DNA of 33,013 bases from Prevotella sp. (lineage in GTDB: Bacteria > Bacteroidota > Bacteroidia > Bacteroidales > Bacteroidaceae), in NCBI GenBank assembly GCA_017449675.1, contig JAFTFG010000009.1, positions 1 to 33,013 of the forward strand, in the 5' to 3' direction. The notes under the pieces were generated by a model. It did no database searches. It was given only the letters and a program-made list of their open reading frames with translations, and was not told the origin of the DNA. Positions 21,576-28,605 of this stretch are shown here, one piece after another; the stretch's first letter is position 1; the number at the start of each line of letters is the position of its first letter. The translations under genes and the position numbers were made by a program.

Positions 21576-22355
21576 CTAAAAGAATACTAAGGGTAGGGAG
21601 TTCCTACGTTTTTGATTCAATTCACCTTTCATGTGATTGATGGCAGTCATAAAGAAGAAAGCGACCAAGTGCTCATCGGTGCCTTCTTCACGAATCTGCT
21701 TCAAAGCGGCGATATAAGCAGCACGATCTTTCAGTTCGATAATGAGCAAGGGATAACCCTCACGAAGAAGAATGAAGTTGGAGAGCAGTCGCCCTGTCCG
21801 TCCATTACCATCACGGAATGGGTGAAGATATTCATAATAGCCATGCCATTTGGCTGCAACCACCATAGGATGCTGTCCGTCGGCAAGAGCACGTTGCGTA
21901 GAGGCCATTAAGGCGGGTACTCGTGCTATCAACGACTCATGGTCGCCAAAAATGGTATCACCAGCAGCCATGTCTTCTGTGGTATATTCTCCTGCGGCAG
22001 CCCCTGGGACTCGATAGCCCAAAGTATGTTCCGTAACCAAGCGGTTTATCTCTTTCAATAAAGTCTCATCGAAAGGACTATTTAGATGACTCACCATATA
22101 GTCAAAGGCCCTAAAATGATCTGCCATCTCCGTACACTCTAACAGCGAGCGTCCTATAGGTATCATTGCCATTCCTTGCTCGCGGAGAATTCGAGTGTCA
22201 TCGACAGTAAACGTATTGCCTTCAATAGCGCAGGAATGAGCCGAGAACAGAATCTCGTTGTATTCCATCCACTGCTGCACCCCCATCCTATCAGCAATCT
22301 CTTGCTGATAGTCCTGTCGGATACGTTCGTACTCCTCTATCTCTTTTTCGAACAT
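21576..22355 (-). CDS. Fic-family protein, class II, with N-terminal inhibitory motif
   Basis: The 259-residue protein starts at 'MFEKEIEEYERIRQDYQQEIADRMG'. The longer frame to 22442 runs through the promoter. The Fic active site 'HPFRDGNGRTGRLL' is complete (HPFxxGNGRxxR). An N-terminal '(S/T)xxxE(G/N)' inhibitory motif is present as 'SCAIEGN', placing it in class II, where the glutamate blocks ATP binding until relieved. The flap region 'GEYTTEDMAAGDTIFGDHESL' precedes the active site. Fic enzymes usually attach AMP to hydroxyl groups of target proteins, in trans or to themselves. No antitoxin gene or DNA-binding domain is seen beside it, so it is a single-gene, self-inhibited type. The target is unknown. 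Confidence 0.92.
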   Translation of the reverse strand: MFEKEIEEYERIRQDYQQEIADRMGVQQWMEYNEILFSAHSCAIEGNTFTVDDTRILREQGMAMIPIGRSLLECTEMADHFRAFDYMVSHLNSPFDETLLKEINRLVTEHTLGYRVPGAAAGEYTTEDMAAGDTIFGDHESLIARVPALMASTQRALADGQHPMVVAAKWHGYYEYLHPFRDGNGRTGRLLSNFILLREGYPLLIIELKDRAAYIAALKQIREEGTDEHLVAFFFMTAINHMKGELNQKRRNSLPLVFF

Positions 22356-22360
22356 CGCTG

Positions 22361-22392
22361 CAAAGGTAGTGTAAATCGAGTGAAATACCAAA
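22361..22392 (-). promoter_or_regulatory. fic promoter (TTTG-N20-TACCTTTG)
   Basis: On the minus strand TTTG (22392-22389) and TACCTTTG (22368-22361) are 20 bp apart. Only 5 bp lie between the -7 box and the ATG at 22355, so the mRNA should be leaderless or nearly so. Confidence 0.8.
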
Positions 22393-22540
22393 TTTCTTCG
22401 CTCATTTTTCATATCAAAGAAAATTGGATGAACTCCTTTCAAGGTCGCAATTTACGGCCATAAACAAACGTCGTCCCATCGGATTTGTACAGCCAAAAAG
22501 GAGGATTAGGAATCATCACCCCTTCCTTGTCACGGCCCGT

Positions 22541-23652: not shown

Positions 23653-25377
23653 TTACTTTAATCTCATTTCTTTCCACTGACTTGCAATAGTGGTAGATAC
23701 ATTAATCGTAGGAGTCTGAGGTTTACCATTAACGATAATAGCACGACGAGATACTTGTGTCTTCACAAAGTTCGCAAGGTCTTCCATATTACAATTACCT
23801 TTTGATTCCTGCAACTTCTTAAGTAAAAAGTATGTAAAGAGTCCATGTCCCTTCTCTTTATAAGGATAAGCAGTTTCATCACCCTGGGCAGCCGACATGA
23901 CAACCATAGGACCATGAGGTGCTGACGGTTTTACTTTAATTGCAATACCTCGGGCAGATGCCAACATTCCGTTTCCACGCTGTGCGCCGGAAAAGCAAGC
24001 ATCCATAAAGATAGACACATTCTTTGTTTTCATTTTACCTAATGTATCATAAAGGCTGGACATCTTATAACCTGTAGCCACATTAGATCCGAGTCCGTCA
24101 ACTGGTAGAAGATAAGCATCTCTATTCGACTCATCAGGTACACCGTGACCGGCATAGTAGAAAATAACTCTTGCTTCGCCGTCAAAGACCATTGCGACCT
24201 TATTTAACCAGTCAACCTCTGCAATGATATTATTAAGTGTCGCATTCTCCTTATAATGAATATTCTCTTGAGGAACTCCCAACGTTTTCTCACAGTATTC
24301 TTTGAAAATCCTACCGTCATTAAGAGCATATTGAACATCTACTTCATTTTGGTAATTCTCATTCGCAATAATGATGGCAAAAGTATTCTCACTAACCTCT
24401 TGCGATTGCGGGATATTTATGTCAACATCAGAAAACTGGCGGGGGGAAGGAGCGGTATTTGGAACATTATTCACCTCTTTCTGCATTGGACTCTGCTGGG
24501 GTATCACTTGATTCTGGTGCTGTTGGACATAGACATCTCGGGGCTGCTCAGACACTTGTTGAACATTAGAATCTGGAACTGACTGTGTAGCGACATCCCT
24601 ATTGGACTGTATTGGGGAATTGTTTCGTAATTGACTTATATCTGGCAACGTTCCTGCGTTCTTACGAGAGATATAATAGTTATAAGAATCTTTATGTATA
24701 CCCAATTTCCCTGCCATATCCGCTGTCACCCAGTCAGGGAGGGACATCACCTCCATTTTTGAGGTTGTCCATACGCCTACACCATTTCTAAATGTATTAA
24801 AAGCATGGTCTCCTATCTGCACTACGGTACGAGGAACATATAACGTTTTTATTTTGGTACTGGGAATAATCACATTCGTGATAGGCGACAACAGTCTGAT
24901 TCCTGAAAGGAAGGCATCATGGTAGAAGAAAGCCCGCTCACCAATCACTTGTAAAGAATGGGGAAGTATCACCTCCTGAACAGGTGATTCAGAAAAGGCC
25001 TCTTCCCCTATTCTCTGCAGACCTTCTGAGAAAAACACGTTGACAAGATTCTTACAATCATTAAACGCTTTCTCTCCAATCTCTATAACCGAAGAAGGGA
25101 TATATACCTCCACGAGATATTTGTTGTTCTTAAAAGTTTTTTCCGCTATCTTGGTTACTGTATATTGCACCCCTTTATTAGTAACAGTTGAAGGTATCTT
25201 ACATACAGAAGACTTGAACTTTGCCTTTTTGTTGTATGACAATGCTACTGTATTATTACCAGAAGGTTCTGCTTTAAAATAAAATATCTGTCCTTCATAT
25301 GTAGAGAAAAACTCTTGGGCTTGCATCTGAATAACAATCAAAAGCAAGTAACCGCACATTAATAGAGCTCTTTTCAT
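23653..25377 (-). CDS. Exported caspase-family (C14) protease with BspA-type leucine-rich repeats
   Basis: The 574-residue protein has a signal peptide (about 1-21, 'IVIQMQAQ'). BspA/LRR_5-type repeats follow (about 68-195: 'VTKIAEKTFKNNKYLVEVYIPSSVIEIGEKAFNDCKNL', 'EGLQRIGEEAF', 'VVQIGDHAF'). Next are a Gln-, Pro- and Asn-rich linker (about 245-325) and a caspase p20-like domain (about 328-550). The catalytic dyad is intact: His411 in 'VIFYYAGHG' and Cys461 in 'SIFMDACFSG'. A later motif is 'GPMVVMSAAQGDETAYPYKEKGHGLFTYFLLKKL'. It should act in the periplasm or at the surface. The ATG overlaps the TGA of the DUF4384-like gene (ATGA, 25374-25377). The substrate is unknown; the leucine-rich repeats suggest binding to a protein or host ligand. 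Confidence 0.88.
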   Translation of the reverse strand: MKRALLMCGYLLLIVIQMQAQEFFSTYEGQIFYFKAEPSGNNTVALSYNKKAKFKSSVCKIPSTVTNKGVQYTVTKIAEKTFKNNKYLVEVYIPSSVIEIGEKAFNDCKNLVNVFFSEGLQRIGEEAFSESPVQEVILPHSLQVIGERAFFYHDAFLSGIRLLSPITNVIIPSTKIKTLYVPRTVVQIGDHAFNTFRNGVGVWTTSKMEVMSLPDWVTADMAGKLGIHKDSYNYYISRKNAGTLPDISQLRNNSPIQSNRDVATQSVPDSNVQQVSEQPRDVYVQQHQNQVIPQQSPMQKEVNNVPNTAPSPRQFSDVDINIPQSQEVSENTFAIIIANENYQNEVDVQYALNDGRIFKEYCEKTLGVPQENIHYKENATLNNIIAEVDWLNKVAMVFDGEARVIFYYAGHGVPDESNRDAYLLPVDGLGSNVATGYKMSSLYDTLGKMKTKNVSIFMDACFSGAQRGNGMLASARGIAIKVKPSAPHGPMVVMSAAQGDETAYPYKEKGHGLFTYFLLKKLQESKGNCNMEDLANFVKTQVSRRAIIVNGKPQTPTINVSTTIASQWKEMRLK

Positions 25378-26243
25378 AATTTAATCGTTATTGGTATTAT
25401 CCTTATATTCATTTTTTGATCATACTTTCTGCATTTAGTCAACCATTTCTGGAAATCAGAGAAAGGCAGTTCTCGTGGAAGACGTTCATTCATATTCATA
25501 TCCTTTGCTTTCACAAATTCATTCGGAGAGAAAATAACATATAATTGATTATGCTCTACTTCTTGAGAACATGTCATATAGTACTCATCAACATCCATCA
25601 TTCTGTCTTTCTCTGCTTCCTGAGTATTAAAGAAGATATACTGTTGATTGGCCTTTATTGGATATATACCCTCATCCTGTACACGATATGGGAGTAAACA
25701 GAATACATGATTATCAGAATCAACAAGATAGGCGGCAAGAAAGCCTTTTACAGGTGACAAGAAAGACAAGAAAAACTCATCGCCATTCATGAAGGTGTCA
25801 CTCTCATTTTTACTATCAATCCCGTTCTTTAATATTTTAACTGAAATATCTATCTGAGCAGTAACTAGTTCGCGCGCCTTTCCTTTGACCGTGCAAGTCA
25901 CTACGAGCATATCATCATCGTATCTGACATCAAACTTAGGTTCATCTGTCGTCTCAATCCATTCACCCTTCACTTCAGAACCGCCTACACTGAAAAAGTT
26001 AGATGCGGAAGAGTTCTTACTATTCTCAATCCGGGTAGTATTACTTTGAGTAACTATTGTTCCAAACTCATCAGCAAGTGCTTGGATCTTTGCCCGTTCT
26101 AATGCCGTACGCTTAGCGTCATCTAAACTGACATTCACTGGCACATGGTAAGTATAGGCACCTTCGACTTTCTTTATCTTTTGCGCTGACGAGAACAGAA
26201 AAGAAAAAGAGAATAATAAAATCAAAAAGATTCTTGTTACCAT
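25374..26243 (-). CDS. Exported DUF4384-like protein of the caspase operon
   Basis: The 289-residue protein has a signal peptide ('MVTRIFLILLFSFSFLFSSAQ'). An N-terminal part (about 22-135) opens with 'VEGAYTYHVPVNVSLDDAKRTALERAKIQALADEFGTIVTQ', similar in style to LPP20-type repeats. The C-terminal part (about 140-270) contains 'FMNGDEFFLSFLSPVKGFLAAYLVDSDNHVFCLLPY', a pattern I associate with DUF4384, a family often found next to caspase-like proteases. It is coupled by overlap to both neighbours: 7 bp with the upstream gene and 4 bp with the caspase gene. No enzymatic motif is visible; a structural or regulatory partner of the caspase is the reasonable guess. Confidence 0.75.
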   Translation of the reverse strand: MVTRIFLILLFSFSFLFSSAQKIKKVEGAYTYHVPVNVSLDDAKRTALERAKIQALADEFGTIVTQSNTTRIENSKNSSASNFFSVGGSEVKGEWIETTDEPKFDVRYDDDMLVVTCTVKGKARELVTAQIDISVKILKNGIDSKNESDTFMNGDEFFLSFLSPVKGFLAAYLVDSDNHVFCLLPYRVQDEGIYPIKANQQYIFFNTQEAEKDRMMDVDEYYMTCSQEVEHNQLYVIFSPNEFVKAKDMNMNERLPRELPFSDFQKWLTKCRKYDQKMNIRIIPITIKL

Positions 26244-26908
26244 CCCAGGATATCATCTAATTTCTTATGCAGTTCCTCACCTTTGTTTTCCAAATCGTCT
26301 CTAATTGCTTTTTTTACTGCACTTTTGGCCATCTTTGCATTATATGCGATACGTACTAGAACTTCTTTATTCTTATTAGAAAGTGTACGATACACTTCCA
26401 CTACAGTAATCGTTCGTCCAATACTTTGGGATATCAAGTTCTTAGCGGCCATTACACTTTTTGTCACCGTTTCGGCCTGTTCTGCTTCCAACTGACTATT
26501 TGCAACTGTGTTTTCTATTAATGCAGTTATCTCTGTCTGAATAGAACCCGCAAGATTCTGTTTTGCCAACTCCATTGCCTGCATTTTCGCACCATCATAA
26601 TTCTGGCCAACACTCATGCCTTCACCCATCATATATTTAGGAAACAAATCGTCATCATATTCCATCTGCATCAAGTACGACTTGTCAAGTTGTTTTTCTA
26701 TAGGTAGAGCACCCGGAGCAGTCTGCCATCCTTCCTTGACTAACTTCTTTGCCTCCTTATGAGCAGTTCTTGTCGCCTTCTCATTCAATTCGCTTTTTGA
26801 AAGTTTCTGATTCTCCTTCCTTTCTTTACGCAGTTCTTTCTGGCTTTGTGCATATCCCCCATAAGTTACTACCAGACATGACAATAAAACAAATAGAAAC
26901 TTTTTCAT
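26237..26908 (-). CDS. Exported LPP20-like helical protein, first gene of the caspase operon
   Basis: The 223-residue protein starts at 'MKKFLFVLLSCLVVTYGGYAQ', a clear signal peptide; an upstream in-frame ATG at 26926 only adds MLELMI. A very basic helical stretch follows ('KELRKERKENQKLSKSELNEKATRTAHKEAKKLVKEGWQ'), then 'YDGAKMQAMELAKQNLAGSIQTEITALIENTVANSQ', which resembles LPP20-type proteins that share this Ala-rich 'A..A...A...L' pattern. There is no lipobox cysteine at the cleavage site. It is first in the four-gene operon. No TAnnTTTG box lies between it and the structured RNA upstream, so its transcription probably comes from the 27263-27293 promoter. Confidence 0.72.
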   Translation of the reverse strand: MKKFLFVLLSCLVVTYGGYAQSQKELRKERKENQKLSKSELNEKATRTAHKEAKKLVKEGWQTAPGALPIEKQLDKSYLMQMEYDDDLFPKYMMGEGMSVGQNYDGAKMQAMELAKQNLAGSIQTEITALIENTVANSQLEAEQAETVTKSVMAAKNLISQSIGRTITVVEVYRTLSNKNKEVLVRIAYNAKMAKSAVKKAIRDDLENKGEELHKKLDDILGW

Positions 26909-26982
26909 AATCATTAATTCCAACAACCTATAAACACCCCTAATTCAGTAACATCAATTAGTTTTAGGTTAACTTATGATAC

Positions 26983-27258
26983 AAAAAAGGCGTAGGTGTC
27001 TGTTTCTTTGCCCATCCTGGCTCTACAGGCTCTCGCATTGCCTCGCCACACAGGATAGACAACGCAGTTAGCCCACGCCAGTACGAACTATATATTATAT
27101 ATAAGGTATATAGAAACGCACCACGTGACGCTTCGTTGTCATCTGTCTGCTGTGGCATCGGAATTTGCGAGATTCGTAGAGCACAACGACAGACGTTCGA
27201 AAACGTCTTTCTCATATATAAGACCGCCCGCTTTACCCACAATGGGCTAACAAGCGAT
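26983..27258 (-). ncRNA. Candidate structured RNA or attenuator leader upstream of the caspase operon
   Basis: A transcript from the strong promoter at 27263-27293 would contain a perfect 9-bp long-range pairing (GTTAGCCCA at 27251-27243 with TGGGCTAAC at 27075-27067), a 7-bp hairpin with a UUCG loop (27208-27191), a 7-bp hairpin (27113-27088) and a 6-bp stem (27056-27014). Its end can form an 8-bp stem (GGCGTGGG at 27079-27072 with CCTACGCC at 26996-26989, one G-U pair) followed by six U (26988-26983). The long-range stem and the terminator-like stem share four bases, so they compete. A 92-codon frame crosses the region but has no features of a real protein. Rfam's Bacteroidales-1 is one candidate family to test; I cannot identify it by eye. 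Confidence 0.55.
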
Positions 27259-27262
27259 GTTG

Positions 27263-27293
27263 CAAAGATACGAATAAGCGAGTAAAGTACAAA
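27263..27293 (-). promoter_or_regulatory. Promoter of the structured RNA and caspase operon (TTTG-N19-TATCTTTG)
   Basis: On the minus strand TTTG (27293-27290) and TATCTTTG (27270-27263) are 19 bp apart. The 22 bases at 27261-27282 are identical to those at 31281-31302 in the dsbD promoter, including most of the spacer between the boxes. Confidence 0.8.
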
Positions 27294-27471: not shown

Positions 27472-28605
27472 TCACTTCACCCCTACAATCTGAGTCTTGG
27501 GCAGTTCACGGTTACGCTTGTTCACTACGGTGACGACCGACTGGGCGAGGTTGATGAAGGCGATACCTGTTGCCGTGTCACTGTTGAGGGCGGCAGGAGT
27601 ACCTTGATCACCACTGTCACAGATGCCTTGAACCAACGGAATCTGGGCGAGTAGGGGAACCTTCATCTCCTCAGCGAGTTGCTTACAGCCCTCCTTCCCG
27701 AAGATATAATAACGGTTGTCGGGTAGTTCCGCAGGTGTGAACCATGCCATGTTCTCCACCAGTCCGAGGATGGGAACGTTGACCTTCTCATTGCGATACA
27801 TATCGATTCCCTTGCGGGCATCGGCGAGAGCCACCTGCTGGGGGGTCGATACGATGATGGCTCCAGTGATGGCAAGGGTCTGCAAGAGGGTCAGATGGAT
27901 ATCGGAGGTACCAGGAGGTGTGTCGAGGATCAGGTAGTCGAGTTCGCCCCAGTCAGCATCGGCGATAAGTTGTTTGAGTGCATTCGATGCCATGCCTCCA
28001 CGCCAGAGTGTCGCCGTCTCAGGACTTACGAAGAAGCCGATGGAGAGGAGTTTGACACCATACGCTTCGATAGGTTCTATGAGGTCACGACCCTCCACAT
28101 TGACAGCATAGGGACGGGCATCCTCCACCTTGAACATCTTCGGCATGGAAGGTCCGAAAATATCGGCATCGAGCAACCCCACCTTGTAACCCAGACGAGC
28201 CAAGGCAATGGCGAGATTGGCAGAGACCGTGCTCTTGCCCACGCCTCCCTTGCCGCTGCTGACGGCCACGATGTTCTTCACCTGCGGCAGGAGTTTGCCC
28301 ACCTCAGGGCGGGGCTTCGACTTGAACTCCGTCTGGATAGTCACTTCGATGTCGGCTGTTAGTTGTTTGCAATGGTATTTGATGGCTGCCTCGGCAGCCT
28401 TGACTGTGGATTTCAGGAAGGGATCCGTATCACGAGGAAACTCCAGGATGACCCCCACCTTCCATGGGTCACCCTCTTTCTGGGGTGCAGCGACAGTAGG
28501 CTGGTCGACCACCATGCCACTCTCTACCACGTTTTTCTTCGTTCCTGCATACGTCACTGTCTGCAGGGCCTCTATGATTATCTGGGGATATAATTTAGAG
28601 TTCAT
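27472..28605 (-). CDS. mrp: Mrp/NBP35-family iron-sulfur carrier ATPase
   Basis: The 377-residue protein has an N-terminal MIP18/DUF59-like domain (about 1-95) and a ParA/MinD-like ATPase domain with a deviant Walker A 'SSGKGGVGKSTVSANLA' (about 115-131), 'LLDADIFGPSMPKMF' and 'LDYLILDTPPGTSDIHLTLLQT'. Later blocks 'VSTPQQVALADARKG' and 'GLVENMAWFTPAE' are typical of the Bacteroidetes members, which lack the canonical CxxC here. Family members bind and transfer iron-sulfur clusters in the cytoplasm. It is the last gene of the dsbD/outer-membrane-protein/mrp run, with a 9-bp gap upstream and a strong terminator downstream. The ATG lies within a heptamer repeat. Confidence 0.93.
   Translation of the reverse strand: MNSKLYPQIIIEALQTVTYAGTKKNVVESGMVVDQPTVAAPQKEGDPWKVGVILEFPRDTDPFLKSTVKAAEAAIKYHCKQLTADIEVTIQTEFKSKPRPEVGKLLPQVKNIVAVSSGKGGVGKSTVSANLAIALARLGYKVGLLDADIFGPSMPKMFKVEDARPYAVNVEGRDLIEPIEAYGVKLLSIGFFVSPETATLWRGGMASNALKQLIADADWGELDYLILDTPPGTSDIHLTLLQTLAITGAIIVSTPQQVALADARKGIDMYRNEKVNVPILGLVENMAWFTPAELPDNRYYIFGKEGCKQLAEEMKVPLLAQIPLVQGICDSGDQGTPAALNSDTATGIAFINLAQSVVTVVNKRNRELPKTQIVGVK

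Follow-up and report, generated by a model that had tools for sequence, protein, structure and literature searches.

The question raised by this locus is whether the RNA encoded ahead of a caspase operon governs that operon, and through which fold. Within the window, by which we mean the whole 33,013-nt stretch of Prevotella sp. DNA that was analysed, a leader of about 290 nt is located on the minus strand between a gene for an Mrp-type P-loop protein (27472-28605) and the operon's ATG at 26914 or 26908, and it runs from a TAnnTTTG promoter to an 8-bp stem with a U6 end, upstream of the LRR_5/caspase operon. The initial annotation read this as the layout of an attenuator or riboswitch and left room for a free-standing RNA. 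The genomes compared here are mostly metagenome assemblies, and the copies found in them are divided into class A, which match over the full length, and class B, which match mainly over the 3' ~100 nt.

Elements and extent of the leader

The elements on which the initial annotation was built are the promoter, a UUCG-capped hairpin, a 9-bp long-range stem (LR) and an 8-bp terminator-like stem (TERM) followed by six U, and each of them was recovered at the positions given below together with a 5' hairpin.

27290..27293, minus strand: -33 TTTG promoter element, called from sequence by its consensus; a loosely defined -33-like box occurs in 85/90 class A copies
27263..27270, minus strand: -7 promoter element TATCTTTG (TAnnTTTG); exact box just upstream in 74/90 class A copies
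27223..27258, minus strand: 5' hairpin, outer stem 27253-27258 with 27223-27228, apical part carrying an LR strand; each pair is formed in 0.87-0.97 of about 90 class A rows, with 12 double-change cells
27243..27251, minus strand: LR 5' strand GUUAGCCCA; formed fraction 0.80-0.99 for eight of the nine pairs across class A rows and 0.51 for the remaining one
27191..27208, minus strand: UUCG-capped hairpin GACGUU-UUCG-AACGUC; 99% paired, changes almost all one-sided
27072..27079, minus strand: TERM 5' arm GGCGUGGG, sharing 27072-27075 with LR; 99.3% of cells paired in 55 rows
27067..27075, minus strand: LR 3' strand UGGGCUAAC; pairing in class A, compensatory in distant copies
26989..26996, minus strand: TERM 3' arm CCUACGCC; pairing in aligned rows and in the copy survey
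26983..26988, minus strand: U6 tract, from sequence; three or more of the six letters are T in each of 55 aligned copies, the selection of which required a run of three T

The TTTG element is separated by 19 nt from TATCTTTG. Calculated for isolated duplexes, the energies are -14.0 kcal/mol for the 9 bp of GUUAGCCCA/UGGGCUAAC and -13.6 kcal/mol for GGCGUGGG:CCUACGCC, and the two stems have in common the four bases 27072-27075, as had been claimed. A terminator-like hairpin with a U-tract is placed between the promoter and the first gene. The leader strand as a whole folds better than 200/200 dinucleotide shuffles (z -5.69), and within it the UUCG-capped hairpin competes with a pairing to about 27127-27134.

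Inspection of the sequence between the U-tract and the first gene revealed no TAnnTTTG box in the window, in line with the earlier claim, and no second promoter box was seen there that would point to a separate transcription start just upstream of 26908. Among class A copies, the exact box lies ahead of the leader in the 74/90 already given, against 5/90 in the interval from the U-tract to +75. A coding function of the leader was considered and rejected: the 92-codon frame in question is not conserved, as its ATG is found in 60/91 class A copies and 4 of those 60 reach 80 codons. The extent of the unit required correction, since its elements stood as described while its boundary had been drawn too short; the conserved part reaches a small hairpin at about 26925-26950.

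Conserved core and covariation of the competing helices

The class A alignment comprises 92 rows, with eight class B copies, L138 and L089 excluded. Without any assumed structure, the top covariation in class A falls within three elements of a conserved, pseudoknotted central core, namely P3, a pair of kissing loops and H2, so that the covariation among homologues that had been proposed as a check is indeed present.

27175..27182, minus strand: P3 5' strand, pairing with 27020-27027; 252 double-change cells, tree-aware two-set E 3.9e-5 for the best pairs
27166..27172, minus strand: loop of a GAA..UUC hairpin that kisses 27031-27037 through 7 bp; pairing 99% or higher, compensatory change at two pairs
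27151..27156, minus strand: H2 5' strand, pairing with 27045-27050; 104 double-change cells, E down to 3.9e-5
27045..27050, minus strand: H2 3' strand, with the evidence given for its 5' strand
27028..27042, minus strand: GGC-AAUGCGAGA-GCC hairpin with the kissing strand 27031-27037 in its loop; GGC:GCC does not vary among 164 rows, all of them anchored on this motif
27020..27027, minus strand: P3 3' strand, with the evidence given for its 5' strand

The P3 helix is hypervariable yet paired in nearly all class A copies, and it adjoins almost invariant elements. A tree-aware null was applied to the combined alignment of 164 sequences, which remained of 169 rows after duplicates and rows with N had been dropped and from which L105, L132, L145, L156 and L160 are missing; this null is a custom procedure modelled on the idea of R-scape, and is not R-scape itself. 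At E 0.05 or better it returned 16 column pairs; in ten of them pairing is 80% or higher, and these belong to P3, the kissing loops, H2, the GAA..UUC stem and one apical pair. No significant column pair that is at least 80% paired was found in TERM or LR by the same null in these 164 sequences.

For the two competing stems, the evidence comes from individual copies. TERM forms all 8 pairs in 226/252 copies when its 3' arm is placed at the best-pairing site before the T-run, and among 55 diverse rows two-sided changes affect two of its eight pairs, with 14 double-change cells. Exchanges of G-C to A-U in the top three TERM pairs occur in 5, 12 and 3 of 88 distant copies, in which TERM pairing is biased because they were found with the covariance model R1 of the 3' domain, a model that includes TERM; the LR partner and the loop described below lie outside R1. 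When the R1 structure was compared with 500 shuffles, none reached the observed pairing or the number of double-change cells, while 53 did so for the number of pairs with two-sided change and 128 for that of pair types.

LR has changed on both strands in many distant copies, for instance to GGGCTAATCA/TGATTAGCCC in L187 and to GGGCTAGCTG/CAGCTAGCCC in L193, and it reads GGCTAGCTG/CAGCTAGCC in L158, which is the window's own operon in another family. Across 86 distant copies, the score of each LR strand with its own partner came to 14.84, compared with 13.64 (sd 0.20) when partners were permuted (p 5e-4), and with 84 non-redundant distant copies and a wider stretch of sequence searched the values were 16.05 and 14.70 (sd 0.23; p 5e-4). 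Permutation inside genomes only, covering 70 copies of 21 genomes, gave p 3e-4. The mean rank of the own partner was 0.70 in the first set (163 copies) and 0.58 in its 94 non-consensus copies, several of which are missing a good partner (e.g., L100, L154, L159, L173, L183, L192, L207). The partner is situated 16-26 nt past the promoter box in 10/12 of the best LR cases with positions, as it is in the window. An alternative stem that excludes the terminator and shows compensatory change is found in this family, and is absent or weak in some copies. The attenuator layout proposed for the window consequently holds up: LR and TERM cannot both form fully, and both are conserved with compensatory changes in relatives. 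Another candidate antiterminator, 27123-27129 with 27071-27078, is 97% paired; it was rejected in favour of LR because its changes are almost all one-sided and its duplex in the window is weak (-6.4 kcal/mol).

A further helix, which had been missed in the initial annotation, is formed between the terminator arm and a hairpin loop before the start codon (LOOP).

26994..27001, minus strand: arm AGACACCU, overlapping the top of the TERM 3' arm; tree-aware two-set E 0.0027 at one pair, within-genome p 2e-4
26932..26939, minus strand: loop strand GGGUGUUU, complementary to 26994-27001; duplex -9.8 kcal/mol
26925..26950, minus strand: small hairpin just ahead of the start codon in which that loop sits; its stem covaries weakly (p about 0.01, two pairs)

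The stem of this small hairpin is weak in the window and stronger in many relatives. Arm and loop read AGACACC/GGUGUCU in class A and AAACUCCC/GGGAGUUU in class B, and further examples of matching sequences are GAATTCCA/TGGAATTC (L371), GGGCTTCA/TGAAGTCC (L336) and CAGACTCTC/GAGAGTCTG (L289). The helix was tested per sequence because the MAFFT alignment displaces class A and class B loops relative to each other. In the first set, its own score was 16.2, against 12.9 with leaders of another arm and 11.1 after shuffling, and it exceeded the 95th percentile of the shuffles in 109/168 copies. In 87 distant copies, the own score was 16.0 and the permuted score 13.1 (sd 0.25; p 5e-4; mean rank 0.76), and p was again 5e-4 for 85 non-redundant distant copies. 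Within genomes, the own loop fitted the arm better in 134/172 comparisons, with 7 ties (p 2e-4), which argues for action in cis. The loop hairpin was not recognisable in L119. Degenerate leaders at L375, L378 and L380 (near position 1500), the last of them doubtful, have lost the central core; what they retain is the arm of the terminator and the loop of the hairpin ahead of the start codon.

A proposed mechanism and its closest rivals

Taken together, we consider it probable that this RNA is a cis-acting attenuation leader and represents an RNA family new to Rfam, with promoter use, termination and switching being what we infer from the sequence. In the proposed course of events, the nascent RNA would form LR first, which would hold the top of the TERM 5' arm, and with LR in place the polymerase would continue into the operon. 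If the core (P3, the kissing loops and H2) perceived a signal, LR would give way, upon which TERM would form and transcription would stop at U6. In the read-through RNA, the freed 3' arm would dock on the hairpin before the start codon, where it may hold the ON fold in place and modulate translation. Since transcription reaches the loop only past the terminator, the loop cannot decide termination. The proposal allows the signal to act either as ON or as OFF.

Attenuator leaders are a known kind. T-box elements and transcriptional riboswitches are attenuators with a terminator/antiterminator pair, and the leader resembles them in having a promoter, an RNA of sensor size, a terminator-like stem with a U-tract, a competing long-range stem and an operon behind. 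It differs from them in that it has no Rfam match at ten loci and in that it adds the pairing of the TERM 3' arm with a loop beside the start codon; this arm-to-loop pairing after the terminator is, in our judgement, an unusual addition. In the cobalamin riboswitch, a loop pairing ties the core to the expression platform. The leader shares such a loop pairing, whereas its sequence and layout are different and no Rfam match was obtained. At the gathering score, Rfam 15 gave 0 matches in the window and at nine other loci, and a relaxed threshold added 8 matches in the window, with E values from 1.2 to 9.5 and for the most part to eukaryotic snoRNA and lncRNA families. Identity with Bacteroidales-1, which the initial annotation had singled out for an Rfam check, is not supported: RF01693 was matched in the control Bacteroides ihuae and found neither in the window nor in its own genome, which is 54% complete. 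Bacteroidales-1 RNA (RF01693) is described as being of unknown function, and it is found in the same order as the leader (PMC2864571).

A plain description of the leader RNA was not found among the papers listed by searches of the open-licence PubMed Central literature. The candidate RNA HMP2_1881 of Bacteroidetes is reported as being 108 bp long, located near radical SAM genes and expressed in faecal RNA-seq (PMC8040213). It resembles the leader in taxon, in a size near that of the 96-position 3' domain, and in having class B-like neighbours upstream of CXXX-repeat radical SAM genes, and it may be a fragment of the leader family, the comparison having been made by description.

A more far-reaching reading, which we regard as tentative, is that the leader is a new Bacteroidales riboswitch class or a second-messenger sensor that would co-ordinate many unlinked operons through a two-step output, namely termination and then docking of the arm on the start-codon hairpin. 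The operons concerned would be those for surface LRR proteins, for eukaryote-like kinase/FHA/phosphatase signalling and for peptide natural products. The family links many poorly understood gut and rumen operons into one candidate regulon across Bacteroidales, and if a small molecule is what the leader responds to, routine ligand screening could identify it.

Lower TERM, LR and LOOP could coexist, so that overlap alone does not prove switching. According to the strongest rival, lower TERM, LR and LOOP belong to one static fold that presents or hides the start codon and thereby controls translation, with the U-tract not serving as a regulated terminator. In keeping with such a fold, LOOP adjoins the start codon and covaries, degenerate copies lose the core and keep arm and loop, and a purine run near 27207-27212 is able to pair with the U-tract, the six pairs being each 0.85-1.00 paired with mostly one-sided changes. 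The static fold, however, has no need of the G-C to A-U exchanges seen in the top three TERM pairs (in copies found with a TERM-containing model), and a T-rich tract follows the stem; we consider this fold unlikely. Somewhat less likely again is that a dedicated antitermination protein, for example a UpxY/LoaP-type NusG paralogue, acts on the leader, which would then not be a ligand-sensing RNA. One leader is common to diverse operons, as is the case for antitermination elements, but the counts of NusG domains do not track the RNA in a small comparison that included some incomplete assemblies. Strong NusG-domain matches numbered one each in the leader-bearing genomes G001, G007 and G019, 3 in G032 and 5 in G034, and a weak match alone was present in G006; divergent paralogues could be missed by these counts. 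The attenuation leader acting in cis remains the reading that we prefer, and the two other rivals are addressed below with the distribution of the family.

Distribution of the family and genes behind the leader

In a DNA search, 130/398 genomes of the same genus had matches at E 1e-6 or better, as had 51/175 of those of good quality, and copies are undercounted here since at most two candidates per genome were scored. One leader of each class was found in the window's own genome, the class A leader of the window and a class B leader on contig 17. The latter (L153, G000 contig 17, 66680-66777) lies ahead of a CXXX-repeat radical-SAM peptide cluster, in which the precursor is just below the TIGR04117 cut-off and the maturase above the TIGR04115 cut-off. 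A gapped core pattern was found at 39 sites in 24/100 relatives, and at none with the reversed control. With a longer pattern, the GTDB collection yielded at least 117 stretches, 80 of which (81 sites) were analysed and 37 left aside; among the matches listed, nearly all have titles of Bacteroidales type, and the genera and groups include Prevotella, Bacteroides, Parabacteroides, Muribaculaceae, Limisoma, Xylanibacter and Phocaeicola. Cultured strains with a match to the pattern include Xylanibacter rarus 109, Bacteroides bouchesdurhonensis Marseille-P2653 and Phocaeicola massiliensis DSM 17679. Three core-pattern contigs among the matches listed (L187, L272, L275) are labelled Clostridia, Lachnospiraceae or Clostridium and are probably mis-binned Bacteroidales contigs. 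Two leader matches about 1 kb apart on one contig were observed at L168 (two sites) and L078.

The R1 model was matched in 56/295 genomes of the order, with up to 8 copies each. These matches sum to 149, of which 88, mostly the stronger ones, were analysed as the distant copies; none of their R1 stretches is identical to those of the earlier sets, two duplicates occur within the set, and they played no part in defining the feature. In a class-wide sample, R1 was matched in 3/197 genomes: the window's own, another from its genus and a further one from its order.

In class A, the first ORF of at least 38 codons begins at a median of 66 nt past the aligned stretch and within 90 nt in 84/92 copies; in L138 no ORF of that length was called. 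Among the distant copies, which belong to other families, 87 extend far enough for this count; such an ORF follows within 200 nt in 81 of them (median 57 nt) and within 110 nt in 74, and on the divergent side an ORF lies within 200 nt in 41/85. Because a same-strand ORF stands behind most copies, the free-standing RNA that had been offered as an alternative is unlikely. Put more specifically, as a small RNA acting in trans whose end happens to fall ahead of the operon, this alternative seems very improbable to us: the leader does make up a complete promoter-to-terminator unit with a strong fold, yet its distance to the same-strand ORF is near-constant in most copies and the loop pairing is locus-specific. 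Furthermore, a strict pattern applied to 100 genomes uncovered no solitary loop targets for a trans-acting RNA; of the 7 loop sites, 4 are behind an R1 match, 2 are accompanied by a clear leader remnant and 1 is doubtful, as judged by eye. That the leader is a mobile, MITE-like hairpin element scattered in the genus is barely credible, for although several copies per genome occur in different places, their promoter, strand and ORF distance are fixed, in other families the same operon is preceded by a leader in which both LR strands differ, and there was no match in phage and plasmid collections and no pattern match in viral contigs.

The operon behind the leader in the window consists of three genes.

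26240..26908, minus strand: first operon gene, 223 aa (225 aa from ATG 26914); no Pfam match
25374..26243, minus strand: second gene, 289 aa; weak DUF4384 match, below the curated cut-off
23653..25377, minus strand: third gene, 574 aa, with LRR_5 and caspase domains; PF13306 2.4e-21, PF00656 4.4e-20

Both ATG 26914 and ATG 26908 are possible starts of the first gene. The first two genes of the window recur behind the leader in L158, L172, L292 and L334. R1 is located just upstream of 5/9 close homologues of the first gene (E 1e-60 or lower, the window included) and of 0/20 remote ones, a count from which two weak R1 matches elsewhere in the homologue loci (L406, L407) are excluded; the link between the leader and this gene is real, and these proportions indicate that it is not obligate. 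Among the loci with called genes, 111/257 fall into one single-linkage cluster around LRR_5-type and similar surface proteins. Domain scans of chosen representatives (20 with Pfam, 10 with NCBIfam) revealed Glug, Big_2, dockerin, kinase, FHA, PP2C, PEGA and peptidase C10 domains, in addition to weak LPP20 and weak LytTR-class matches and CXXX-repeat radical-SAM systems. The first genes at L072, L086, L088, L090, L115, L123 and L130 form a small-protein family, without a Pfam match in L072, the one member scanned, and are often found just before very large surface proteins. Downstream of the caspase operon in the window, a Fic/DOC-family protein is encoded on the minus strand at 21576-22442.
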